Shown here: piece after piece, positions 29,100 to 53,689 of the stretch
Layout: every line of letters starts with the position of its first letter
How positions within the stretch are numbered: the stretch's first letter is position 1
Assembly: GCF_012999535.1 (NCBI RefSeq)
Contig: NZ_JABBWV010000001.1
Span: forward strand, 868,001 to 932,000
Length of the DNA: 64,000 bases
Origin: Microbispora sp. H11081
GTDB taxonomy: Bacteria > Actinomycetota > Actinomycetes > Streptosporangiales > Streptosporangiaceae
Direction of reading: 5' to 3'
Position numbers and translations under genes: made by a program
The notes under the pieces: generated by a model
Told to the model about the DNA's origin: nothing
The model's input: the letters and a program-made list of their open reading frames with translations, nothing else
Database searches by the model: none

Positions 29100-29354
29100 G
29101 TGAAGCTGAAGCTGGACCTCCACGACATCTACAACAAGGGCAGCGAGATCGACAAGGCGCTGCACGGCATCATCCAGGAGGCCGTACGCAAGAAGGCGAC
29201 GCAGGTGGAGATCATCCCTGGCAAGGGGTCCGGCCAGCTCAAGAAGAAGGTGCTGCGCTTCCTCGAACAGAAGGAGATCAAGGCGCTCTACCACCGGATC
29301 GACAAGGACTCCAAGAACCACGGCCGTCTGTTCGTCTACTTCCAGTGGAAGTAA
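29100..29354 (+). CDS. Small Smr-domain protein
   Basis: This 84-residue protein is an isolated Smr (small MutS-related) domain, as found at the C-terminus of MutS2. Its motifs are KLDLHDIYNKG (LDLH), VEIIPGKGSGQLKKKVLRFL (GxGxG-like loop) and HGRLFVYFQWK at the end. Smr domains nick or bind branched DNA or RNA. In many actinomycetes such a tiny gene stands alone. The TAA stop lies within the 29339-29369 direct repeat, showing that the 3' end of this gene is the chromosomal target of the adjacent island and is restored intact by it. Confidence 0.85.
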   Translation: MKLKLDLHDIYNKGSEIDKALHGIIQEAVRKKATQVEIIPGKGSGQLKKKVLRFLEQKEIKALYHRIDKDSKNHGRLFVYFQWK

Positions 29355-29369
29355 GGGCACCGCGCGTCT
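29339..29369 (+). repeat. att-like direct repeat A (smr 3' end)
   Basis: This is the left copy, containing the last codons and stop of smr. The core CTTCCAGTGGAAG is itself a 13-base palindrome (CTTCCA-G-TGGAAG). The copy is identical over 31 bases to copy C, and over the 22-base core to copy B. Confidence 0.85.
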
Positions 29370-29382
29370 ACCAGGGTAAACG

Positions 29383-29592
29383 TCATATTGATCTTCCCGA
29401 GGGCACAACCAGGGCACTCGGCTCGGTTTGCTCTTGAGTGAAGAACGCGTCCATGGCCTTACGCGCCCGGTCGGCTGCGTTCGGCATGAGGTGGGTGTAC
29501 GTCCGGAGCGTGAAACCAGGGTCGGAGTGACCTAGATACTCGGCGCGGTTCAAGTAAGACAGGACCGACGTCCGACACTCCGCCGGGCAGGA
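29383..29592 (-). pseudogene. Tyrosine integrase, C-terminal relic
   Basis: Reading the minus strand, an open frame ends at a TGA (29383-29385) and encodes EYLGHSDPGFTLRTYTHLMP followed by NAADRARKAMDAFF. This is the unmistakable C-terminal part of an actinophage-type tyrosine recombinase: the LGH histidine and the TYTH tyrosine nucleophile are both present. About 20 residues upstream the frame loses similarity and meets a stop at 29593-29595, so the Arg-Lys-HxxR part and the N-terminus are gone. Its position beside repeat A matches an integrase next to its attachment site. No start codon is available, so it should be inactive. Confidence 0.85.
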
Positions 29593-29747
29593 TCAGTTCG
29601 CGCCGGGGAGTGCCGCTCTGCCGCAGTCTTGGCTCAAGCTATCGATCGGTGTTCGGTCTCGGTGCCCGCGTGACAGATCCGGCTCGGGAGGTGGGCGACA
29701 CTCCGACTAGATGACCTATCGTCCTTCTTTCCCAGATGGAGATGATC

Positions 29748-30320
29748 GTGACGGAAGATGAGGTGGAGTCGCTCACCACTGCGTGGCGCGCGCGGTGGGG
29801 GAGAAACCCGATCGCCTATCAACTCCGCGGCTGGAATGCCGACCGCTGGGTCCGCTTCCACAGTCTTCCGGAGTCCAAGCGGTATGCCGAGACGGAAGAC
29901 GAGTACCAGATCATCCTTGATCGTCATCACCGGGTGCTCACCGAGCTCGGGGCAGCAGAGGAGGGCCTCTATGTGATCGCCGTCTACTTCGAGGACGAGC
30001 AGGGGAGAATCTCATCCGATCCGCGTCATCCGGACGCCGTCCCATGGCTGACGATCGAGCCTGGCGACGACTCGCCATTCGAGGTCGCAGCGAGCCTCTA
30101 TGTCAGCATGACCTCCTTCGACCGGCAGACCTTGGATCCGCTGCTGCGGGGCGCGGCCGACGAGGAACTGATCGACGTGATCATCGCTTCTTTGCATCTC
30201 CGGTGGCTCTACCACCCCTACGACGGCGGAGCCGACGTCATCGCGCCCACCGCCCACGACCGTGACGTCTTGAAGAACCGCCACGCAGACTGGCTGTCTA
30301 CGCACCCAGCCGGACTGTAG
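29748..30320 (+). CDS. DUF3885-like protein (island cargo)
   Basis: This is a ~190-residue soluble protein. It shows the pattern I associate with DUF3885: WGRNPIAYQLRGWNADRWVRFHS near the start, EYQIILDRHHRVLTELG, and RWLYHPYDGGADVIAPT close to the end. Function is unknown to me; the family is mostly encoded in variable regions. Three starts lie close together (ATG 29736, ATG 29742, GTG 29748); GTG 29748 has GGAG six bases before it and is chosen. Base composition is lower in GC than the flanks. The nearest genes are the integrase relic and, 660 bases on, the opposing HTH/repeat protein. Confidence 0.68.
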   Translation: MTEDEVESLTTAWRARWGRNPIAYQLRGWNADRWVRFHSLPESKRYAETEDEYQIILDRHHRVLTELGAAEEGLYVIAVYFEDEQGRISSDPRHPDAVPWLTIEPGDDSPFEVAASLYVSMTSFDRQTLDPLLRGAADEELIDVIIASLHLRWLYHPYDGGADVIAPTAHDRDVLKNRHADWLSTHPAGL

Positions 30321-30977
30321 AGGCAGGCAAGCTGCGCTCGCATTCACGATCCCGCAGCACCTCAGCACGCCTGGTGTGATCATCGCAGCCAAGCTGTCGT
30401 TCGGCCCTGTGAGAAGTTTCTGTACGTCTTCAAGGCGGCCCGAAGCCGGGCCGCACGCGCCGCCGTCACGGCAACGCCGCCGCCTCCCGCTGGCGCTCCC
30501 GGCGGCCGGCTAAGAGCACCGCCGGACGGCTGGCGCGGACGAGTCGAGGCGGGCCGCCGCGCGACAGTACAGGTCTGATCATGAGCGGCGGGCTGAGCTG
30601 GAACAGCCGCCAAGTGCCGCGCAGCGCGTGGTGGCGCCTCCGGCGGGGGGCGCTCCGGCTCCGGGATGGCCTCGAACGCACGTGCGGGTTGTGGGGTGGC
30701 TGAGGTGGGAGCCATCCCGCCCGCCATCGACCCCAGGCAAGCCCAGCAGCCCGCCTCCTCCGCCGCAAGCCCGGCTGTGACCGTTGGCATCCGACGACCG
30801 TGGAAGGTGCCCAGGCGAAGGGACACGTCAAGCCGGGCTTGCACCTCCGTCGCCGGCCCGCTGCCGCTCCGCGGTGGGGTCGACGGCAGACGGGATGGGC
30901 AAATGAGTGGTGCCGGACATCCGACGCGGGCCGATCCCCCCTGCCTAGTAGTACGGGTCGAGCTGCCCCCCAGTCAC
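30321..30977. other. 657-base stretch without a recognisable gene
   Basis: Short open frames exist on both strands, but their translations are low-complexity Arg/Pro/Ala-rich and none resembles a protein family. A perfect hairpin GCGGCCCG-AAGC-CGGGCCGC lies at 30435-30454 and may end transcription from the DUF3885-like gene. The rest could be decayed element sequence; nothing further is supported. Confidence 0.5.
30435..30454 (+). terminator. Candidate terminator hairpin
   Basis: An eight-base perfect stem (30435-30442 / 30447-30454) with loop AAGC lies 115 bases past the DUF3885-like stop. No T run follows. Confidence 0.35.
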
Positions 30978-32618
30978 TCAGGCGTCGAGGGCTGCGCGGC
31001 CCGAACCTGGACCCTTAGCTAGTGCAAGCCGCTCGGCCAGCACTTTAGCTGGCGCGCCAGCCCCCAATATTTGCATAATCTGCACCAGATCGCTTACGCC
31101 CTGCTCGTGGCGAACAGGCACGGCTCTTGAGGCACGTTCAGCTAGTGCCGCCACCTGCTCATCGGCTCCTGCCCAATTCAAATCACGCAACAATTCGGCG
31201 ACACTACGGGGGCTAATTACGTCGACGTCAGCGGCGATACTTTCAGCCATGGCCATGATCTGCGCCTTAGCTCCTATTTGTCGCAGGATATACACTAGCT
31301 TGACCATGACGTGCAGAAAGCTGACAGGGAGGTCGGGAACCTTCTTAATCACCATATCGATCTGTTCCTTCGCTCCCACCTTCTGAAGCGCCTCCAGCAC
31401 CTCGACCGCTTCAGAGACGTCACGCAAAGGGAGATCAGGGATGCGCTTAACTACCGTCGCGATTTGCTCCTTAGCTCCTACCCGGCGAAGAGCATTCAGC
31501 ATCCTAACTATCCCGTACCAGTGGTCAAGGGGGAACTCGGGTAGCTGTTTAGTCAGTATCGCGATTTGTTCCTGCGCTCCTACCCTACGAAGAGCGTCGA
31601 GCAGCTCAACTGCGCCGCTATGATCTTTCAGGTTGGGATAGAGGTCGGGGATACGCTCAACTAATACAGCAATCTGTTCCTTGGCCTCGGCACGCCTAAG
31701 GACATCTAGCAGCTTGGCCATGGTGTATGGGCTGCGAAGAGAGAGATCAGGAACACGCTCGGCCAATACCGTGATTTGCTCCTTAGCTCCTACCCTGCGA
31801 AGAGCGTCCAACAGTCCGGCAACGTCGTACGGGTCTCTTAGATCGAGAGGAAGGTCGGGGATGCGTTCAACCAACATCGCGATCTGCCCCTCGGCTCCGG
31901 CCCGCCGCAAAGAGTCCAACAGGCCGGCCACAGCTCTTGTGTCCTCGGGATTGATATCAGCGCCGAACTGTTCCTGAGCCGGTTGCTGCGTCTCCAACTG
32001 ATCAAGGAGTTCTTCGAGTACCTGCACACGCTGTTCTGCTTGGCGAACCCGATCTCGAGCTAGTTCAAGTTGCTGGGTCAGATAGATGATTTCTTGCTCG
32101 TGTCGAACGCGGTCCTCATCCCAAGCGGCGCGGAGACGTTCGGCCTCACTTAGCAAATCCTGTAACACGCGAGTGCGTTCTGTCAGCTCTTGTTCGAGGG
32201 TCTGAGCGTAGCGCTCGGCCTCCTTCCAGCTAGTGACAGCTATCTCCAGTTGGTCACTGACTTTTCGTACTCGGTACTCATGCGGATGAGCAACCTTGAG
32301 AGCAGCCATCTGCAAGTTAACCAGGTGTGCGCGAACCTCATCAGTAACGGGAGTGCCAGCACTTACGCGTAGGGCCATAATTTGATCAAGAAACCACCGG
32401 TCGGCGGGCACACGTTTGCCGTTCAAGTACCGCGACACAGTGCCCTTATCGATGGGATGAAGCCGACAGAACAGGCTGATCGACATGCCTAGGGCGACGA
32501 ACTGAGCCCGTAGCTCTGCCGCCCAGGCCATTACCTCTGGGCTGAGCTCCGGGCTCAATGGTGCCAACTCGACTGGACGACGGACGATCTCACTCACCTG
32601 CCCATCATCACCGTCCAT
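30978..32618 (-). CDS. HTH / coiled-coil / nine-repeat helical protein (island cargo)
   Basis: This is a 546-residue protein I cannot name. Residues ~33-80 are a Cro/C1-type HTH (SISLFCRLHPIDKGTVSRYL followed by NGKRVPADRWFLDQIMAL). Residues ~118-215 are a long Glu/Arg/Gln-rich coiled coil. Residues ~229-535 are nine tandem ~35-residue helical repeats (starts near 229, 265, 300, 335, 370, 404, 437, 472, 507) of the form (A)VAxLLDALRRVGAKEQIAxLVERIPDLPL, which should stack as a solenoid. ATG 32618 has GGAAAG upstream; the longer frame is a shadow. GC is clearly below the window norm. The layout suggests a DNA-binding regulator with a large protein- or ligand-sensing scaffold. It is divergent from a two-helix membrane protein. 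Confidence 0.75.
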   Translation of the reverse strand: MDGDDGQVSEIVRRPVELAPLSPELSPEVMAWAAELRAQFVALGMSISLFCRLHPIDKGTVSRYLNGKRVPADRWFLDQIMALRVSAGTPVTDEVRAHLVNLQMAALKVAHPHEYRVRKVSDQLEIAVTSWKEAERYAQTLEQELTERTRVLQDLLSEAERLRAAWDEDRVRHEQEIIYLTQQLELARDRVRQAEQRVQVLEELLDQLETQQPAQEQFGADINPEDTRAVAGLLDSLRRAGAEGQIAMLVERIPDLPLDLRDPYDVAGLLDALRRVGAKEQITVLAERVPDLSLRSPYTMAKLLDVLRRAEAKEQIAVLVERIPDLYPNLKDHSGAVELLDALRRVGAQEQIAILTKQLPEFPLDHWYGIVRMLNALRRVGAKEQIATVVKRIPDLPLRDVSEAVEVLEALQKVGAKEQIDMVIKKVPDLPVSFLHVMVKLVYILRQIGAKAQIMAMAESIAADVDVISPRSVAELLRDLNWAGADEQVAALAERASRAVPVRHEQGVSDLVQIMQILGAGAPAKVLAERLALAKGPGSGRAALDA

Positions 32619-32667
32619 GGCAGCTTTCCGCGAGGAACCGCAGCCCTTACGAGCGTTGCCAAATGTC

Positions 32668-32694
32668 TGCAACCCCCCACCTGTGGTCGTTGCA
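32668..32694. promoter_or_regulatory. Inverted repeat between the HTH-repeat gene and the small membrane gene
   Basis: TGCAAC (32668-32673) and GTTGCA (32689-32694) are inverted repeats. GCAACCCCC also occurs twice as a direct repeat in the same 60 bases. The site lies in the 173-base divergent promoter region and is a plausible operator for the HTH protein. Confidence 0.4.
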
Positions 32695-32791
32695 GTGCGG
32701 CGCAACCCCCTCGGGTTCTGGCTTTGTAGTACCGAGCAATCGCGCCTCGCCTCGCGACCGCGTGGCGATACCGGCATGAGAGAGGAATCCT

Positions 32792-33010
32792 GTGTCCCGC
32801 CCGGTTCACTCAACCTCCCCCCTTCTGACCGTTCGAGCTGCCTTGATCCTGGGGTTGTCCCTGATCTTCGGTGCCGTCGCCGGCGCCCTCACTTACTGGG
32901 CCACCCGCTCGGCCCCCGGGGCGATCCTGGGCGCTGGCGCTGCTACCGCTGGCGCAATCGGGCTGCTGAACCAGATCATCAGCAGCACGGTTGAGGACAA
33001 CGCCGACTAA
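32792..33010 (+). CDS. Small two-helix membrane protein (island cargo)
   Basis: This is a 72-residue protein with two hydrophobic helices (LLTVRAALILGLSLIFGAVA and, after TYWATRSAP, GAILGAGAATAGAIGLLNQI) and a short acidic tail SSTVEDNAD. No family is recognised. GTG 32792 has a strong ribosome site GAGAGGAA at 32780-32787. It is divergent from the HTH/coiled-coil/repeat protein and 193 bases before repeat B. Pairing of a sensing regulator with a small membrane hairpin protein is seen in toxin and defence loci, but here that role is only a hypothesis. Confidence 0.65.
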   Translation: MSRPVHSTSPLLTVRAALILGLSLIFGAVAGALTYWATRSAPGAILGAGAATAGAIGLLNQIISSTVEDNAD

Positions 33011-33174
33011 TATCTCTAGATCATGCCGGTCCTCCGTGAAGCTCAATCAAGGTCGTCCGAAGCGAACTGGGCGATGGCCGAGGGCACAACGAGGGCACAT
33101 GACATCAAGATCAGCCGTGAAACGTCGAGAACCACCGAGACAACCCTTGCAGGTCATCGAGGTGGTTCTCAGAC

Positions 33175-33459
33175 TTACTGCAGGCCAGGACGGCGGCCGA
33201 TCACTTCCAGTGGAAGTAAGGGCACTGCACGTCTACCAGGCCAAACGTCCTGTGAGGTGACGTGCGTTCCGCGTCGGCCGATCGACATCCGCTTCTCTGC
33301 GGTGGCGCTCTCCGGCATGGTCAACGCAACGTTGATCTTGACGCCCTGCTTCTCGGTCACGCCATGGGCGGTGTATTCGTACTCCACGACCTCGGTGGCC
33401 ACGCGCAAGCTCCGCTCCATGCCGAGCGGCGATTCTGGCGGACCATCCACCGCGTTCAT
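33175..33459 (-). CDS. Hypothetical protein or fragment reading across repeat B
   Basis: This is an open frame of 94 residues starting MNAVDGPPESPLGMERSLRV, with a protein-like middle (EVVEYEYTAHGVTEKQGVKI). Its C-terminal 25 residues are simply the translation of repeat B, so the natural C-terminus has probably been replaced by the insertion. There is no clear ribosome site, and its start is 13 bases from the divergent VOC gene. It may be a remnant of another element gene. Confidence 0.3.
   Translation of the reverse strand: MNAVDGPPESPLGMERSLRVATEVVEYEYTAHGVTEKQGVKINVALTMPESATAEKRMSIGRRGTHVTSQDVWPGRRAVPLLPLEVIGRRPGLQ
33204..33249 (+). repeat. att-like direct repeat B
   Basis: This is the internal copy. 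The first 22 bases equal copies A and C, then two substitutions separate it from A. Similarity to A continues through GTCTACCAGG and AAACGTC, i.e. further than for C. It marks the junction of two insertion units. Confidence 0.8.
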
Positions 33460-33472
33460 AGGATCGACTTTC

Positions 33473-33883
33473 ATGGAACCGATACGGACCGTGGTCGTGT
33501 TCGACGCTGCTGACCTGCACGCCGAAAGTGCGTTCTGGGCAGGGATGCTAGGTGGGCATGCCTTTGAGGACGAGACGTTCCACAGCGTCATCGACGCGGC
33601 CGGTGAGTGGCGCATCGGCGTCCAGCTCGCGCCGAAGCATGTTCCTCCCGACTGGCCGGACGGCGCGCCTCAGCAGGTACACATGGACCTCCACGTTGAG
33701 GACCCCAGGCCGGCGCACGAACAGGCGATGAAGCTCGGTGCCCGATTGCTTCGAGCCGGTGATCTGGAAAGCGACGAGGGGCACCAGGTGTACGCCGACC
33801 CAGCCGGCCACCCGTTCTGCATCGGCTGGGGTCAACCGTCCCGAGAGGCGCTGGCAACGTTTGTCCGCGAGAGGTTGGGATAG
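33473..33883 (+). CDS. VOC-family (glyoxalase-like) protein
   Basis: This is a 136-residue single VOC domain. Its features are IRTVVVFDAADLHAESAFWAGML at the start, RIGVQLAPKHVPPDWPDG, QVHMDLHVEDPRPAHEQAM and the final DPAGHPFCIGWGQ. It matches the Glyoxalase_6-like group common in actinomycetes, some members of which are metal-dependent enzymes and others bind small molecules; the substrate is not deducible. ATG 33473 has AGGATCG upstream. It occupies the second, ~0.7-kb unit of the island, between repeats B and C. Confidence 0.78.
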   Translation: MEPIRTVVVFDAADLHAESAFWAGMLGGHAFEDETFHSVIDAAGEWRIGVQLAPKHVPPDWPDGAPQQVHMDLHVEDPRPAHEQAMKLGARLLRAGDLESDEGHQVYADPAGHPFCIGWGQPSREALATFVRERLG

Positions 33884-33912
33884 GCGAACCTCGCCTCAGC
33901 GGCGCTCAATCG

Positions 33913-33943
33913 CTTCCAGTGGAAGTAAGGGCACCGCGCGTCT
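33913..33943 (+). repeat. att-like direct repeat C (right end)
   Basis: This is identical over 31 bases to copy A, then a one-base deletion (TCTCCAGG versus TCTACCAGG) ends the similarity. It marks the right boundary of the island. Confidence 0.85.
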
Positions 33944-34019
33944 CCAGGCGCCTCATTCAGGCGGCTCGCAAAGCGTGAGGTCCGGCAGGCCCAGGACCCG
34001 AAGGGGTACCGGGGGCACT

Positions 34020-34247
34020 TCATTCACCAGCAGTGGGTCGGCAGACGGGCTCCTCGCCAGGCTCGGCGCCGTCGCAATAGTCAGCCGGATCGCCGGAGCG
34101 AGCATGGGCCCGCAGCGATGAGATAAGCCCGTGCCCGTAGATCATCAGCGAGTCCACCCTGCGCCACCCTTCGCATTGGGGATCACAACTACCCCAGCCG
34201 ATCGTAATCACACAAACACAATCTGTCACCAGTGCATGTGTTCGCAT
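34020..34247 (-). CDS. Small hypothetical protein
   Basis: This 75-residue open frame contains the segment CDPQCEGWRRVDSLMIYGHG followed by LISSLRAHARSGDPADYCDG. It looks protein-like (Cys pair, amphipathic helix) and has lower GC than its surroundings. I do not recognise it. The start could be ATG 34247 or a later GTG. It lies just outside the right end of the island and could be a remnant of older insertions. Confidence 0.35.
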   Translation of the reverse strand: MRTHALVTDCVCVITIGWGSCDPQCEGWRRVDSLMIYGHGLISSLRAHARSGDPADYCDGAEPGEEPVCRPTAGE

Positions 34248-34341
34248 CGTTCGGTCAGTAGGAGCAGCGGTGATGGTGGGATTGTGCGCGGGAATCCCGG
34301 CGCTGGTCGGCCCGGCCGTTCGACCGGCGTGCTGGGGAGGG

Positions 34342-36114: not shown

Positions 36115-36179
36115 TTGGGCGGAGGCGCCGTCCGCGATCGGGCGGCGCGGGAGAAAGCGGGAGAAAGCGGCTTCCGGAG

Positions 36180-36554
36180 TCAGAGCTTGCGGACGTGCCA
36201 CGCCTCCTCGGCCGCCGCCAGGACACCGTCGAGCGAGGCCCCGCCGCCCGCCGCGACGACCGCCGAGATGGCGCCCTCCACGAACGGCACGTCGGCGAGC
36301 ACGACGGCGCCCGGGGACTCCAGCAGCCGGGCGGTGAGCACGGAACTGCCGAGGTCGGGGATCAGCACGACGCCGTCCCCCCGGTCCACCTCCTCGATGG
36401 CGGCGGCCACCCGGTCGGGGCTGGTGCCTACGCCGCCGTCCTCGGTGCCGCCCGCCGCCGCCAGCGGCACGTGCGCGCCGCCGATCTGCCTGGCCAGCGC
36501 GGCCACCTCGGCGGCCAGGCCGCTGCTGTGTGAGACAAGTACGATGCCGACCAT
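36180..36554 (-). CDS. dhaM: Dihydroxyacetone kinase phosphotransfer subunit DhaM
   Basis: This 124-residue EIIA-like subunit carries phosphate from HPr of the PTS to the ADP held by DhaL. The active His is in VLVSHSSGLAAEVAAL, and the rest (GGTEDGGVGTSPDRVAAAIEEV, VLIPDLGSSVLTARLL) fits the family. It is the short single-domain form rather than the HPr/EI-fused form. ATG 36554 follows GGGACGG. It is third in the dhaK-dhaL-dhaM operon, 32 bases after dhaL. Phosphate supply depends on general PTS enzymes encoded elsewhere. Confidence 0.9.
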   Translation of the reverse strand: MVGIVLVSHSSGLAAEVAALARQIGGAHVPLAAAGGTEDGGVGTSPDRVAAAIEEVDRGDGVVLIPDLGSSVLTARLLESPGAVVLADVPFVEGAISAVVAAGGGASLDGVLAAAEEAWHVRKL

Positions 36555-36586
36555 TCGCCGTCCCTGTGACGTGTTCGCCACCCCCG

Positions 36587-37213
36587 TCATCGGGAGGCGG
36601 CGGCCTTCAACGCGCCGAGGACGAGCGCCGTCGAGGCGGCCCCCGGGTCCTCGTGCCCGATGCTGCGCGGCCCCAGGTAGCTGGCCCGCCCCTTGCGCGC
36701 CTGCAACGGGATCGTCGCCTCGGCCCCCTGCCCGGCCGCGGCGGCCGCCGCATCCAGCGCCTCCTCCGCCTTCAGCCCGTCCCGAACGGCCTGGGCCAGC
36801 GCCCGCGCGGCCGGGGCGAGGGCGTCGACCATGGTCTTGTCGCCTTCCGCGGCGCCGCCGAGGCGCCGTACGCCGGACAGGGCGGCGTCGAGGGCGGCGC
36901 TCAGCTCGGCCGGCGAGACCTCGGCGGCCTCGCCGAACGCCTTGCCCATCTCGCGGAAGGCGGTGCCGTACAGGGGGCCGGAGGCCCCGCCGACCTTGCG
37001 GATGAGCGTGGAGCCGACCAGGACGAGGAGCGCGCCGGGGGTCGGCGGGGAGGCGCCGGCCAGCGCCTCGCGCGCGGCGGTGAACCCGCGGTCGAGGTTG
37101 GCGCCGTGGTCGGCGTCGCCGATCGCGGCGTCCAGTTCTGTGAGGTGGTCGCGCCGCGCCCGCACGGTGGCGGCAATCTCGTCGATCCACGCGGCGAAGA
37201 ACTCGGTGTTCAC
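36587..37213 (-). CDS. dhaL: Dihydroxyacetone kinase subunit DhaL
   Basis: This 208-residue nucleotide-binding subunit holds ADP/ATP through Mg and transfers phosphate to dihydroxyacetone on DhaK. The metal-site motif is ELDAAIGDADHGANLDRGF (two Asp), followed by LIRKVGGASGPLYGTAF and GDKTMVDALAPA. SYLGPRSIGHEDPGAAS near the end is typical. ATG 37213 lies 28 bases past the dhaK stop. It is the middle gene of the operon. Confidence 0.93.
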   Translation of the reverse strand: MNTEFFAAWIDEIAATVRARRDHLTELDAAIGDADHGANLDRGFTAAREALAGASPPTPGALLVLVGSTLIRKVGGASGPLYGTAFREMGKAFGEAAEVSPAELSAALDAALSGVRRLGGAAEGDKTMVDALAPAARALAQAVRDGLKAEEALDAAAAAAGQGAEATIPLQARKGRASYLGPRSIGHEDPGAASTALVLGALKAAASR

Positions 37214-37241
37214 GGGTGGGCTCCAGATGTCAGGACGACGG

Positions 37242-38234
37242 TCAGCGGCCCCAGCGCAGCGCGGGCGTCTCCACGGGCGCGTCCCACAGGCGGGTGAGCT
37301 CCCCGGTCAGCGAGCACGTCGTCACCGAGAAGCCCTGCATGTCGAGGCTGGTCACATAGTTGCCGACGAGGCTGCGTACGGCCGTCGCGCCCTTCTCCCG
37401 CAGGTACGCCTCCACCTCGGCGAAGACGATGTAGAGCTCGATGAGCGGGGTCCCGCCCATGCCGTTGACCATGACGAGCGTCTCGCCGGACAGCGGCAGG
37501 TCGGCGTGGATCGCGTCCATGGCCGTACGGACGATCTCGCGGGCCTCGCGCATCGGGGCGCGGGTGCGGCCAGGCTCGCCGTGGATGCCGACGCCGAGCT
37601 CTATCTCGGCGTCGCTCAGCTCGAAGGTGGGTTTGCCCGCGGCGGGGACCGTGCAGGGGGTCAGCGCCACCCCGAAGGAGCGGCTGCGCTCGTTGACCTC
37701 CCGGGCGGCCCGCGCCACCTCGGCGAGGGGCGCGCCGGTCTCGGCCAGCGCTCCGGCGATCTTCTCCACGAACAGCGTGGCCCCGGTGCCGCGGCGGCCG
37801 GCCGTGAACAGCGAGTCGCGCACCGCCACGTCGTCGTCGACGAGCACGGTCGCCACCTCGACTCCCTCGTCGCCGGCGAGCTCCGCGGCCATCTCGAAGT
37901 TCAGCACGTCGCCGGTGTAGTTCTTCACGATCTGCAGCACGCCGGCGCCGCCGTCGACGCCCTTGGCGGCCTCGATGATCTGGTCGGGGACGGGAGAGGT
38001 GAAGACCTCGCCGGGGCAGGCAGCGTCGAGCATGCCGTACCCGACGAACCCGGCGTGCAGCGGTTCGTGGCCCGATCCGCCGCCGGAGACCAGGCCGACC
38101 TTGCCCGGGGTGGGGGCGTCCGCGCGGAAGACGACCCTGCCGGCGAGGTCCACACGGAGCGAGGGGTGCGCCGCGGCGATGCCGCGCAGCGCGTCGGTGA
38201 CGATGGAGTCGGCGTCGTTGATGAGCTTCTTCAC
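37242..38234 (-). CDS. dhaK: Dihydroxyacetone kinase subunit DhaK
   Basis: This 330-residue substrate-binding subunit binds dihydroxyacetone covalently through a His (GVGIHGEPGR) as a hemiaminal and passes it phosphate, giving dihydroxyacetone phosphate for glycolysis. Other family segments are GLVSGGGSGHEPLHAGFVG, LQIVKNYTGDVLNFEMAAE and MVNGMGGTPLIELYIV. ATG 38234 is the natural start (MKKLINDADSIVTDAL). It is first gene of dhaKLM, divergent from the cyclase gene. No glycerol uptake or dehydrogenase gene is beside it. Confidence 0.95.
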   Translation of the reverse strand: MKKLINDADSIVTDALRGIAAAHPSLRVDLAGRVVFRADAPTPGKVGLVSGGGSGHEPLHAGFVGYGMLDAACPGEVFTSPVPDQIIEAAKGVDGGAGVLQIVKNYTGDVLNFEMAAELAGDEGVEVATVLVDDDVAVRDSLFTAGRRGTGATLFVEKIAGALAETGAPLAEVARAAREVNERSRSFGVALTPCTVPAAGKPTFELSDAEIELGVGIHGEPGRTRAPMREAREIVRTAMDAIHADLPLSGETLVMVNGMGGTPLIELYIVFAEVEAYLREKGATAVRSLVGNYVTSLDMQGFSVTTCSLTGELTRLWDAPVETPALRWGR

Positions 38235-38427
38235 GATGCGTCCCTACTGCCGTTGTCGTGCTCTCCAGCTTGCCCGTTCCTCGCGAAGCCGCAAGGGTGC
38301 GGCTCACGGCCTCCCGGGGCGGCGTCGTCACGGCGATCCGTACGCGAGCGCATCGGGGCTCCCCGTATGGCGTTCCGGGGGGAGGGTGTAGGAGTATCGC
38401 AGGGATGTCCTGACTGTTGGAGGCGCT

Positions 38428-51292: not shown

Positions 51293-53689
51293 ATGCGATC
51301 CTCACGCACACGTACCGGGCTGCGGTCGCGATCGGCCCTTGCTTCCGCCGTGCTCGCGGTGCCGGCCTTGGTGCTCGGCTCCACCGGCCCGGCCGCCGCC
51401 GAGACGGGGGCCGCGCCCGTCCTCGACGTGGCCACGCTCTCGCCGGTAGCCGAGCCGAGCTACAACGGCGCGACGAACACCGCCTACACCCCGTCGACCA
51501 CGACCGGGGCGGGGGGCTGGTTCACCAACGGAGACGTGACGTTGAACCTGTCCGCCACGGACGACGAAGCCGTCGCCTCGTTCCAGGTCACGGTGGGATC
51601 CGAGCCGGTCGTCGAGGTGCCGGCCGTGCGGAACGGCACCCGGGGCACGGCCACCTACGTCATCACGGGCGACCGCAACAGCACCGTCCGCTACAGCGCG
51701 GTCGACGCCGCGGGCAACGTCTCGGCCGCCAGGACGATCAGCGTGCGGATCGACACCAAGCCGCCGGTCGCGGCATGGCCGGGCATCGCGAACGGCAAGG
51801 TGCCGCACAGCGCGGCGGCCTCCTCCATCACGCCGACCCGGACCGACCCGTCCCCCGGCTCGGGCGGCGTCGCCGTGCGCGACATGTGGATCGACGGCAA
51901 GTGGACCTATCCGGTGCCGCTCGACCCCGCCACCCTGTCCGTCGGCGCGCACACGTGGGCGGTCACGCTCGGCGACGCCGCGGGCAACGGAGCCACCTAC
52001 ACCCTGACCTTCGAGATCACCACCTCGGTCGCGGACGTCCGCGCCCTGGTCCAGCGCTACGTCACCGCGGGCAAGGTCTCGGCCTCCAACGGCGACCGGC
52101 TTCTGGCGCTGCTCACCGAGGCCGACGCCGGTGGCGACGCCGCCGTGTCCGCGCTGACGCGCTTCGGCGCGCTGGCCGCCCAGGTCGTGCCCGAGGGCCA
52201 CATGCGCGACTCCCTCGTGAAGGACGCCGCCCACCTGGTCGAGAAGCTCCAGGGGGTGCAGCACCCCGAGGTGGTCACCGGCGTCACCGTCAGCGCGGCG
52301 CGTGGCACCGAGCGCGCCCCGTTCCGGGTCCCCGGCGAGTCCGTGCGCAACAAGAAGCCGAAGTTCAAGGTGCTCGCCTTCGGCAACAAGCCCGGCGCCT
52401 TCCGGCACGAGCACATCCCGCTCACGATGGCCGTGATCCAGGACATGGGCCGGGCCAACAACTTCGACGTCGACGTGTACGACTACCTCAGCCCCGACGT
52501 CTCGGTCCCGAACCCCTTCGAGAGCATCGAGCGCCTGTCGCAGTACGACGTGATCATCGGCGTCTCCAGCGTCGGTAACGACACGTTCTCCACGGCCCGG
52601 CCCACCGAGGCCGACCCCAGCGTCACGGTGGACGAGCAGGCCGTTCTCAAGCAGTACATCAACAACGGCGGCGGCTTCGTCGCCCTGCACGGCGCCACCG
52701 ACTCCATGCACCGGTGGGACTGGTACAAGGGCCTCGCCGGCGGCGAGTTCGACAACCACGGCTCCAACGGCAGCGGCATCCAGAGCACCTGTGGAGCCTG
52801 CAACATCGCCGAACTGGTGACCGAGGACCGCACCAACCCGGCCACGCGCCAGTTCCCCGAGAAGCTGAAGATCGTCGACGAGCTCTACAACTGGACCTTC
52901 CTGCCGCGTGACAAGGTCCACGTCCTGCAGACGCTGAACGAGGCCACGTACGTCGGCAGCATCGGCGCCGGCGCGGGCCGCGTCGAGGGCGCCGACCACC
53001 CGATCTCGTGGTGCCAGAACTACGACGGCGGGCGCTCGTTCACCCAGGCGCTGCTGCACAACTGGGCGAACTCGCTCGACCCGTTGTTCCAGAAGAACAT
53101 CCTCGAGGGTGTCAAGTGGGCCGCCGGTCAGACCAAGGCGAACTGCGTCAGCCACGAGGAGCTGCGGACCCTCGTCGCCGCCGGTGTCGCGGACGGGTCG
53201 GTCGGCGCCGACCTGGCCGACCGCCTGAACCAGGCGCTCACCGCGTCGTACGACGCCTACCGGGTGAAGAACTACGCCGAGGCGCACGCGCAGGCGAAGG
53301 CGTTCCGCCAGGCGGCCGACTCCGGTCATCTGGGCGGACGCGCCCAGAGCACGATCCGGGACCGGGCCCACGAGCTCGTCGACTGGATGAAGGTGCTCGA
53401 CGACAAGAGCCTCCACCTGCGGTTCACGTCCCAGCCCAAGGCGAAGCCCGCGCGGGCCGGTGAGGACGTGGTCATCTCCGCCACCGCCGAGGGCCGCAAC
53501 GTCGCCTACCAGTGGCAGGTGAAGTCGCCGGGCTCGCCCGAGTGGACCGACGTGGCCGGCGAGACGTCGTTCGCGATCGTCGTCACGGCGACCCCGGAGC
53601 TGTCCGGCTCCGAGTACCGGGTCCGTGTGACCGACCCGAGCGGCGAGATCGTCTCCCGTCCGGCTCCGCTGAAGGTCAACGGGCGCTGA
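51293..53689 (+). CDS. Secreted ThuA-domain protein
   Basis: This is a 798-residue exported protein. A Sec/Tat-like signal (SRTRTGLRSRSALASAVLAV, cleavage after GPAAA) leads into Ig-like/Big repeats with AVDAAGNVSAARTISVRIDT (~60-270), then a helical FIMS-type spacer. A ThuA-like domain (~350-600) follows with VLAFGNKPGAFRHEHIPLT, NGGGFVALHGATDSMHRWDW and DHPISWCQNYDGGRSFTQAL. Another helical spacer and a C-terminal Ig-like domain (VAYQWQVKSPGSPEWTDVAG) complete it. ThuA-like domains act in sugar (trehalose or other glycan) metabolism. ATG 51293 follows AGAGGAG. The 5' region suggests carbohydrate-type repression. Confidence 0.87.
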   Translation: MRSSRTRTGLRSRSALASAVLAVPALVLGSTGPAAAETGAAPVLDVATLSPVAEPSYNGATNTAYTPSTTTGAGGWFTNGDVTLNLSATDDEAVASFQVTVGSEPVVEVPAVRNGTRGTATYVITGDRNSTVRYSAVDAAGNVSAARTISVRIDTKPPVAAWPGIANGKVPHSAAASSITPTRTDPSPGSGGVAVRDMWIDGKWTYPVPLDPATLSVGAHTWAVTLGDAAGNGATYTLTFEITTSVADVRALVQRYVTAGKVSASNGDRLLALLTEADAGGDAAVSALTRFGALAAQVVPEGHMRDSLVKDAAHLVEKLQGVQHPEVVTGVTVSAARGTERAPFRVPGESVRNKKPKFKVLAFGNKPGAFRHEHIPLTMAVIQDMGRANNFDVDVYDYLSPDVSVPNPFESIERLSQYDVIIGVSSVGNDTFSTARPTEADPSVTVDEQAVLKQYINNGGGFVALHGATDSMHRWDWYKGLAGGEFDNHGSNGSGIQSTCGACNIAELVTEDRTNPATRQFPEKLKIVDELYNWTFLPRDKVHVLQTLNEATYVGSIGAGAGRVEGADHPISWCQNYDGGRSFTQALLHNWANSLDPLFQKNILEGVKWAAGQTKANCVSHEELRTLVAAGVADGSVGADLADRLNQALTASYDAYRVKNYAEAHAQAKAFRQAADSGHLGGRAQSTIRDRAHELVDWMKVLDDKSLHLRFTSQPKAKPARAGEDVVISATAEGRNVAYQWQVKSPGSPEWTDVAGETSFAIVVTATPELSGSEYRVRVTDPSGEIVSRPAPLKVNGR

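Follow-up and report, generated by a model that had tools for sequence, protein, structure and literature searches.

A 64,000-nt stretch of the Microbispora sp. H11081 genome (contig NZ_JABBWV010000001.1, positions 868,001 to 932,000; hereafter the window) carries smr, a gene for an 84-aa Smr-domain protein (29100..29354, + strand; PF01713, E 1.8e-14), the 3′ end of which very probably serves as the attachment site of integrating elements. The gene is present in 14 of the 15 genomes of the genus and in 174 of the 341 genomes of the family; in the window its stop ends at 29354, and its final codons are TAC TTC CAG TGG AAG TAA. An earlier note on this DNA had described the smr end as tripled in direct orientation, and the sequence CTTCCAGTGGAAG is indeed found exactly at 29339, 33204 and 33913, within three direct copies, A, B and C, that start at 29338, 33203 and 33912. 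Allowing up to two mismatches, a search of both strands of the window gave seven matches, compared to a mean of 0.63 in 100 shuffled sequences (largest number 3); six of the seven correspond to copies A, B and C, each found on both strands, and the remaining one is a two-mismatch match at 53506. Alignment of the copies reproduced the identity of A and C over 31 bases (29339–29369 and 33913–33943) and showed 91% identity between A and B over 47 bases, and in the window's own genome, a 71-base query from copy A detected only these three places. The core is a palindrome around one central base, TACTTCCA-G-TGGAAGTA, with a length of 17 bp rather than the 13 first reported.

Integrase remnant and probable tandem junctions downstream of smr

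Copy A (29338..29384, + strand) resembles a left attachment site (attL) and consists of the smr 3′ end, the core and an element arm, P′, with the dyad TCTACC-AG-GGTAAA. It is followed on the minus strand, 28 bp past the smr stop, by the C-terminal remnant of a tyrosine integrase (29383..29553; 56 aa from the first start codon) with a LGHSDPGFTLRTYTHLMP tail. This remnant matches PHROG 1 among the PHROG integrase families (E 5.9e-4) as well as columns 373–422 of 425 of an integrase hidden Markov model (HMM; E 1.1e-21) that was trained on 22 of 30 related integrases, all sense-strand and none of them adjacent to smr. Its DNA is 85–98% identical to the corresponding region of other Microbispora.

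In integrase-bearing genomes, the junction between smr and the element reads core, then GGGCACCGCGCGTCTACCAGGGTAAACGTC (P′), then the integrase end. The opposite arm, P, lies left of copy B in the window (33080..33202, + strand). It is conserved: its counterparts in M. hainanensis, M. rosea, M. siamensis and M. sp. H13382, each on the left side of the second copy, are 79–92% identical to it. Copy B (33203..33249, + strand) is bordered by P to the left and by P′ to the right. Copy C (33912..33948, + strand) keeps on its left 14 nt identical to the end of P in M. rosea and M. hainanensis and is followed on its right by P′; its region is 97% identical over 37 nt to the junction of H13382. B and C carry both arms and therefore look like junctions between tandem elements, a reading we adopt for B and regard as probable for C. 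The earlier note had taken the divergence of B from A, together with its longer right flank, as a sign of two independent insertions. More than one insertion is still indicated, and B is not identical to A; the right flank, in turn, matches the element's own arm, so that B would mark an element-element junction and not an outer end. To the right of C, an element-internal segment (33951..34260, no strand assigned) is 87–89% identical to M. siamensis and M. sp. H13382, where its counterpart lies between the two att copies, ∼166 bp left of arm P; in the window it would be what remains of a third element that has lost its right end.

Taken together, it is highly probable that a family of tyrosine-integrase elements found in Streptosporangiaceae uses the smr 3′ end as its bacterial attachment site (attB) and that the window contains a decayed tandem array of at least two, and probably three, elements of this family, of which the outer right end has been lost. 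In the simplest reading, three elements would be stacked, with the newest beside smr and the oldest lacking its right end. As a mechanism, we infer that the integrase may bind inverted half-sites formed by the conserved last smr codons (TACTT-N7-AAGTR), with strand exchange in the 7-bp middle as the presumed overlap. An incoming element would restore the last smr codons and thereby leave the gene whole, and repeated insertion at the restored site would lead to tandem stacking. Copy A, with the final part of the integrase gene, would then join smr to an element, B and probably C would be element-element junctions, and the outermost right junction would have been deleted since.

The remainder of the array is occupied by other genes. 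A DUF3885 gene (29736..30320, + strand; 194 aa; PF13021, E 6.1e-39) takes the spot where relatives keep more of the integrase, and in the window, sequence matching the DNA next to the integrase of M. rosea begins again at 30430. A 611-aa open reading frame (ORF; 30978..32813, − strand), apparently cargo, contains repeats of ∼34–36 residues at its C-terminal end (spacing 102/108 nt) and gave coiled-coil Pfam matches only, all of them sub-threshold. The sole clear gene between B and C is glyoxalase-like (33473..33883, + strand; 136 aa; PF18029, E 9.1e-21). The island was originally proposed to end at 33943. This boundary does not hold, as the variable stretch extends to ∼36176, where the neighbouring operon resumes in the comparison with relatives; this conserved operon (36176..38295, − strand), which we take to be a dihydroxyacetone-kinase-like dhaMLK operon, closes the hotspot and lies directly downstream of smr in element-free genomes.

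The dyad after the core was also considered as a terminator of smr. This was dropped, because elements at other genes also contain the dyad, between the core and the stop of the integrase, which makes an element arm more likely. In Microtetraspora (loci L116 and L123), the first 60 bp after an integrase-free smr contain a P′-like dyad and a GAGGGCAC-ACCAGG stretch resembling the Microbispora integrase end; these stretches are probably scars of older insertions.

Reuse of the smr 3′ end in Microbispora and related genera

Use of the site beyond the window was analyzed in a sample of 80 named loci with a relative of smr, in which an integrase or remnant was counted as near if it lay within 300 bp of the smr stop. 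Fourteen loci have a near integrase or remnant, one has an integrase farther away only, and 65 have none; an earlier version of the HMM, which contained antisense frames and smr-adjacent rows, returned the same 14 of 80. They comprise six Microbispora, Planobispora takensis and P. siamensis, Streptosporangium subroseum and S. violaceochromogenes, Nonomuraea dietziae, two Planomonospora, and Sphaerisporangium perillae. P. takensis has an open integrase frame of 475 codons. Within Microbispora, the HMM detects a remnant at this place in nine of the 14 genomes with smr, including the window; M. siamensis retains a frame of 361 codons, the truncation point differs in each lineage, and two integrase tails in tandem are also found in M. 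rosea and M. bryophytorum. Where measured, the distance from the end of the integrase frame to the smr stop is 32–45 bp, except in S. violaceochromogenes (142 bp) and Planomonospora ID67723 (150 bp).

A comparison with related strains, as suggested in the earlier note, revealed an empty site. In M. hainanensis, the DNA right of the degenerate second copy matches the DNA directly after smr in Microbispora G010 with 94% identity over 2,410 bp, and the match begins ∼2 nt after the 21-bp core; the two genomes are an occupied/empty pair. Moreover, smr and the operon are separated by 2.2 to 14.6 kb in the 12 of 14 Microbispora loci in which the interval is measurable, compared to ∼0.13 kb (L050) and ∼0.56 kb (L052) in element-free genomes of other genera. 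The integrase remnant at A, the occupied/empty pair and an intact element in another genus (see below) bear out the proposal of a reusable attB, and reuse of the smr end by mobile elements in Microbispora and relatives is supported. The features by which integrative elements are recognized are found as follows: direct repeats, one of them in the target gene, in the window and in Streptosporangium amethystogenes (40 bp); a tyrosine recombinase adjoining the att site, as a remnant in the window, intact in S. amethystogenes and as an open frame in P. takensis; and an empty site in a relative for M. hainanensis, with none found for the window's own outer end.

Several observations weigh against this interpretation. 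Pfam does not call the integrase remnant of the window, which contains no complete integrase; the left arm of C is represented by 14 nt only; and the outermost right attachment site (attR) was not found in the window. Likewise, no attR was detected in the examined stretch of P. takensis, P. siamensis, N. dietziae and Planomonospora ID82291, the contigs of the first two ending early. Finally, the integrases of S. violaceochromogenes and Planomonospora ID67723, 142–150 bp from smr, have a different core and belong to a clade adjoining other genes, and we left both loci out of the users of the smr core. With regard to these two loci (L182 and L181), the integrases are of the glnA type, with clade relatives beside a presumed glnA-like gene; a glnA-like gene end is located between smr and the integrase in Planomonospora ID67723, and the core of both loci is glnA-like.

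A complete element in Streptosporangium amethystogenes and elements in two orientations

In S. amethystogenes (G301, L186; C24), a perfect 40-bp direct repeat (TTCCGCTACAAGTAG...) is found at the smr end and again 14,658 bp downstream, enclosing a 14.7-kb element (391–15088 of L186, with smr oriented forward). Among the 341 family genomes, this is the only one with a second nearby copy of this site; genome G313 has a single uninterrupted copy, plus a weak partial match elsewhere. A hairpin-like repeat is also present right of the core. The integrase is intact (424 aa; PF00589, E 2.4e-17), with what we take to be the R, HxxR, LGH and Y motifs in place. Of 24 ORFs picked in the element, 15 were scanned (Pfam 10, PHROGs 14), giving matches to a terminase small subunit (TerS; phrog_1496, E 1e-14), a tail tape measure protein (1,171 aa; phrog_4197, E 2.9e-120), an AAA_25/helicase-like protein, an HTH_17 excisionase-like protein, GntR, DUF2637 and the integrase. 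None of these 15 of 24 ORFs matched a head, portal or large terminase family, and no transfer (FtsK/TraB-like) or Rep gene was seen among them.

Satellites of the type of the phage-inducible chromosomal islands (PICIs) combine an integrase with a packaging gene and lack capsid genes. The S. amethystogenes element resembles them in carrying an integrase, an excisionase-like helix-turn-helix protein, an AAA/helicase-like protein and TerS within 14.7 kb, which we presume to be PICI features. In contrast to PICIs, it has a full-size tape-measure gene with no other tail genes found, and no helper phage was identified. Judged by its gene content, it is possibly a phage satellite, perhaps of a new type, or a reduced prophage. 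A free phage carrying the integrase of the smr elements was looked for and rejected, with best matches below 60% identity in 778 phage records and none in viral contigs.

The S. amethystogenes integrase points to the distal repeat, and thus opposite to those of Microbispora and Planobispora. It is nevertheless 63% identical to the M. siamensis integrase across 346 aa and 62% identical to that of P. takensis across 425 aa. Remnants in the same reversed orientation are present in Sphaerisporangium perillae and in a Sphaerisporangium metagenome-assembled genome: in the former, the minus strand matches the junction and integrase tail of the window (76% over 213 bp), and in the latter, the minus strand immediately following smr matches arm P (73% over 134 bp). 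The smr codons TAC TTC nnn nnn AAG TRA yield a core, TACTT-N7-AAGTR, with inverted half-sites. Written in the frame of the element, the cores are TACTT-CCAGTGG-AAGTA in Microbispora, TACTT-CCATCTG-AAGTA in S. perillae and TACTT-GTAGCGG-AAtTA in S. amethystogenes; thus, the outer half-sites are constant and the 7-bp middle varies with the host. Such a near-symmetric core could permit insertion in both orientations. We tentatively propose, as a possibility on the weaker side of even, that integrases of a single clade insert at one protein-gene site in either orientation through a near-palindromic core and stack there in tandem, and that the active forms include a phage satellite with its own TerS and tape measure. 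Alternatively, the orientation in S. amethystogenes and Sphaerisporangium could have arisen by later inversion of an integrated element, since a palindromic core could let the integrase invert the segment between two sites, and inversion and reverse insertion need the same symmetry. We consider such an inversion unlikely, although worth keeping in mind, because the perfect 40-bp repeats of S. amethystogenes are direct and have the smr orientation at both ends, as simple integration predicts.

Given the related elements at the same site in other genera, one of them intact, a single ancestral insertion in Microbispora, vertically inherited and decaying, with the three copies arising by later duplication, appears improbable. 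In its favor, the divergence of the integrase tail tracks that of third codon positions in CBS and smr (r = 0.76; 21 pairs from seven genomes, three of ten aligned genomes having been left out because their tail or upstream DNA was unalignable), and the two are of similar size (0.085–0.166 for the tail, 0.067–0.154 for third positions), which fits an insertion older than these species. However, the seven genomes were picked from ten, and when all ten, with the unalignable tail or upstream rows, are compared with whole upstream divergence, the correlation is −0.20. Moreover, the window and M. sp. H13382 differ at two of 132 tail bases and at 84 of 764 third positions, and the element is therefore younger than the backbone or was exchanged. 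In addition, copies B and C have both arms, which is unexpected from a plain duplication of the smr end. For the integrated elements at smr, old inheritance and later turnover are likely both involved.

A reading of the repeats as dispersed or intergenic sequences, such as a terminator or regulatory element, with no role in integration would fit a palindromic core at a gene end. It was rejected as scarcely credible on three grounds. A family-wide search located the pattern CTTCCAGTGGAAGTARNGGC at 14 places in 10 of the 341 genomes, with one to three copies per genome; these genomes belong to a single genus, and judging from the coordinates, each place falls at smr or within the island that follows it. 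Furthermore, the copies lie exactly at the ends of foreign DNA with integrase tails, and the occupied/empty pair exists. A tRNA target was likewise rejected, as the window contains no tRNA or tmRNA.

Known integration sites and integrases at other genes

Protein genes are frequent targets of integration in general, as 43.4% of 1.75 million islands lie in protein genes compared to 33.8% in tRNA or tmRNA genes (PMC12424338). Among actinobacterial integrative and conjugative elements (AICEs), tRNA 3′ ends dominate (PMC3218068), and Streptococcus integrative and conjugative elements (ICEs) and islands are described at the 3′ ends of rplL, rpsI, lysS, rpmG and guaA (PMC4701971). The initial view that islands usually use tRNA 3′ ends is thus not tenable in general and stands for AICEs. 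Elements are known to insert at protein-gene 3′ ends, to form tandem arrays and to use palindromic targets (PMC4701971, PMC3218068, PMC12424338). The Streptococcus protein-gene ICEs are like the smr elements in using a conserved gene 3′ end, leaving the gene intact and having direct repeats at both ends. Two orientations have been reported for rpmG, with integrases that are 21% identical (PMC4701971), whereas the target here is smr and the integrases of opposite orientation are 62–63% identical. Likewise, AICEs share with the smr elements a tyrosine integrase, actinobacterial hosts and restoration of the gene 3′ end; in contrast to their tRNA targets, smr is a protein gene, and the scanned S. 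amethystogenes ORFs lack the FtsK/TraB-like and Rep genes.

No report of smr as an integration target was found in the open literature searched, most subscription papers and the TIGER tables being outside the search; novelty appears to lie in smr as a target, in the reuse of this site and in the opposite orientations of closely related integrases. This adds a protein-gene attachment site common to several genera and explains the hotspot between smr and the next operon. Close integrases with opposite orientations at one site make the role of core symmetry in insertion direction directly testable, and the integrases could be of use for integrating DNA in Streptosporangiaceae, which are rich in natural products.

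Relatives of these integrases are found at other genes. In the integrase tree, of which only the starred forks were used, the S. perillae frame (integrase in its last ∼85 residues) and the apparently antisense L080 were disregarded. The integrases of P. takensis (L073/L183) and P. rosea (L074) are 83% identical over 452 aa and lie beside smr and beside the end of a presumed glnA-like gene (...RYLPVL*; named from translations), respectively, which suggests a recent change of target. A wider clade (L081–L083 and L087; L084, L089 and L090) adjoins the conserved gene 3′ ends VRGLGYKFEP and RPHPHEFELYYDV, presumably response-regulator-like and glutamine-synthetase-like, respectively. In Planotetraspora (L113–L115), CGTGATCATGCACAGGTTCGG repeats at 53-bp steps are located just after smr and ∼5.5 kb downstream.

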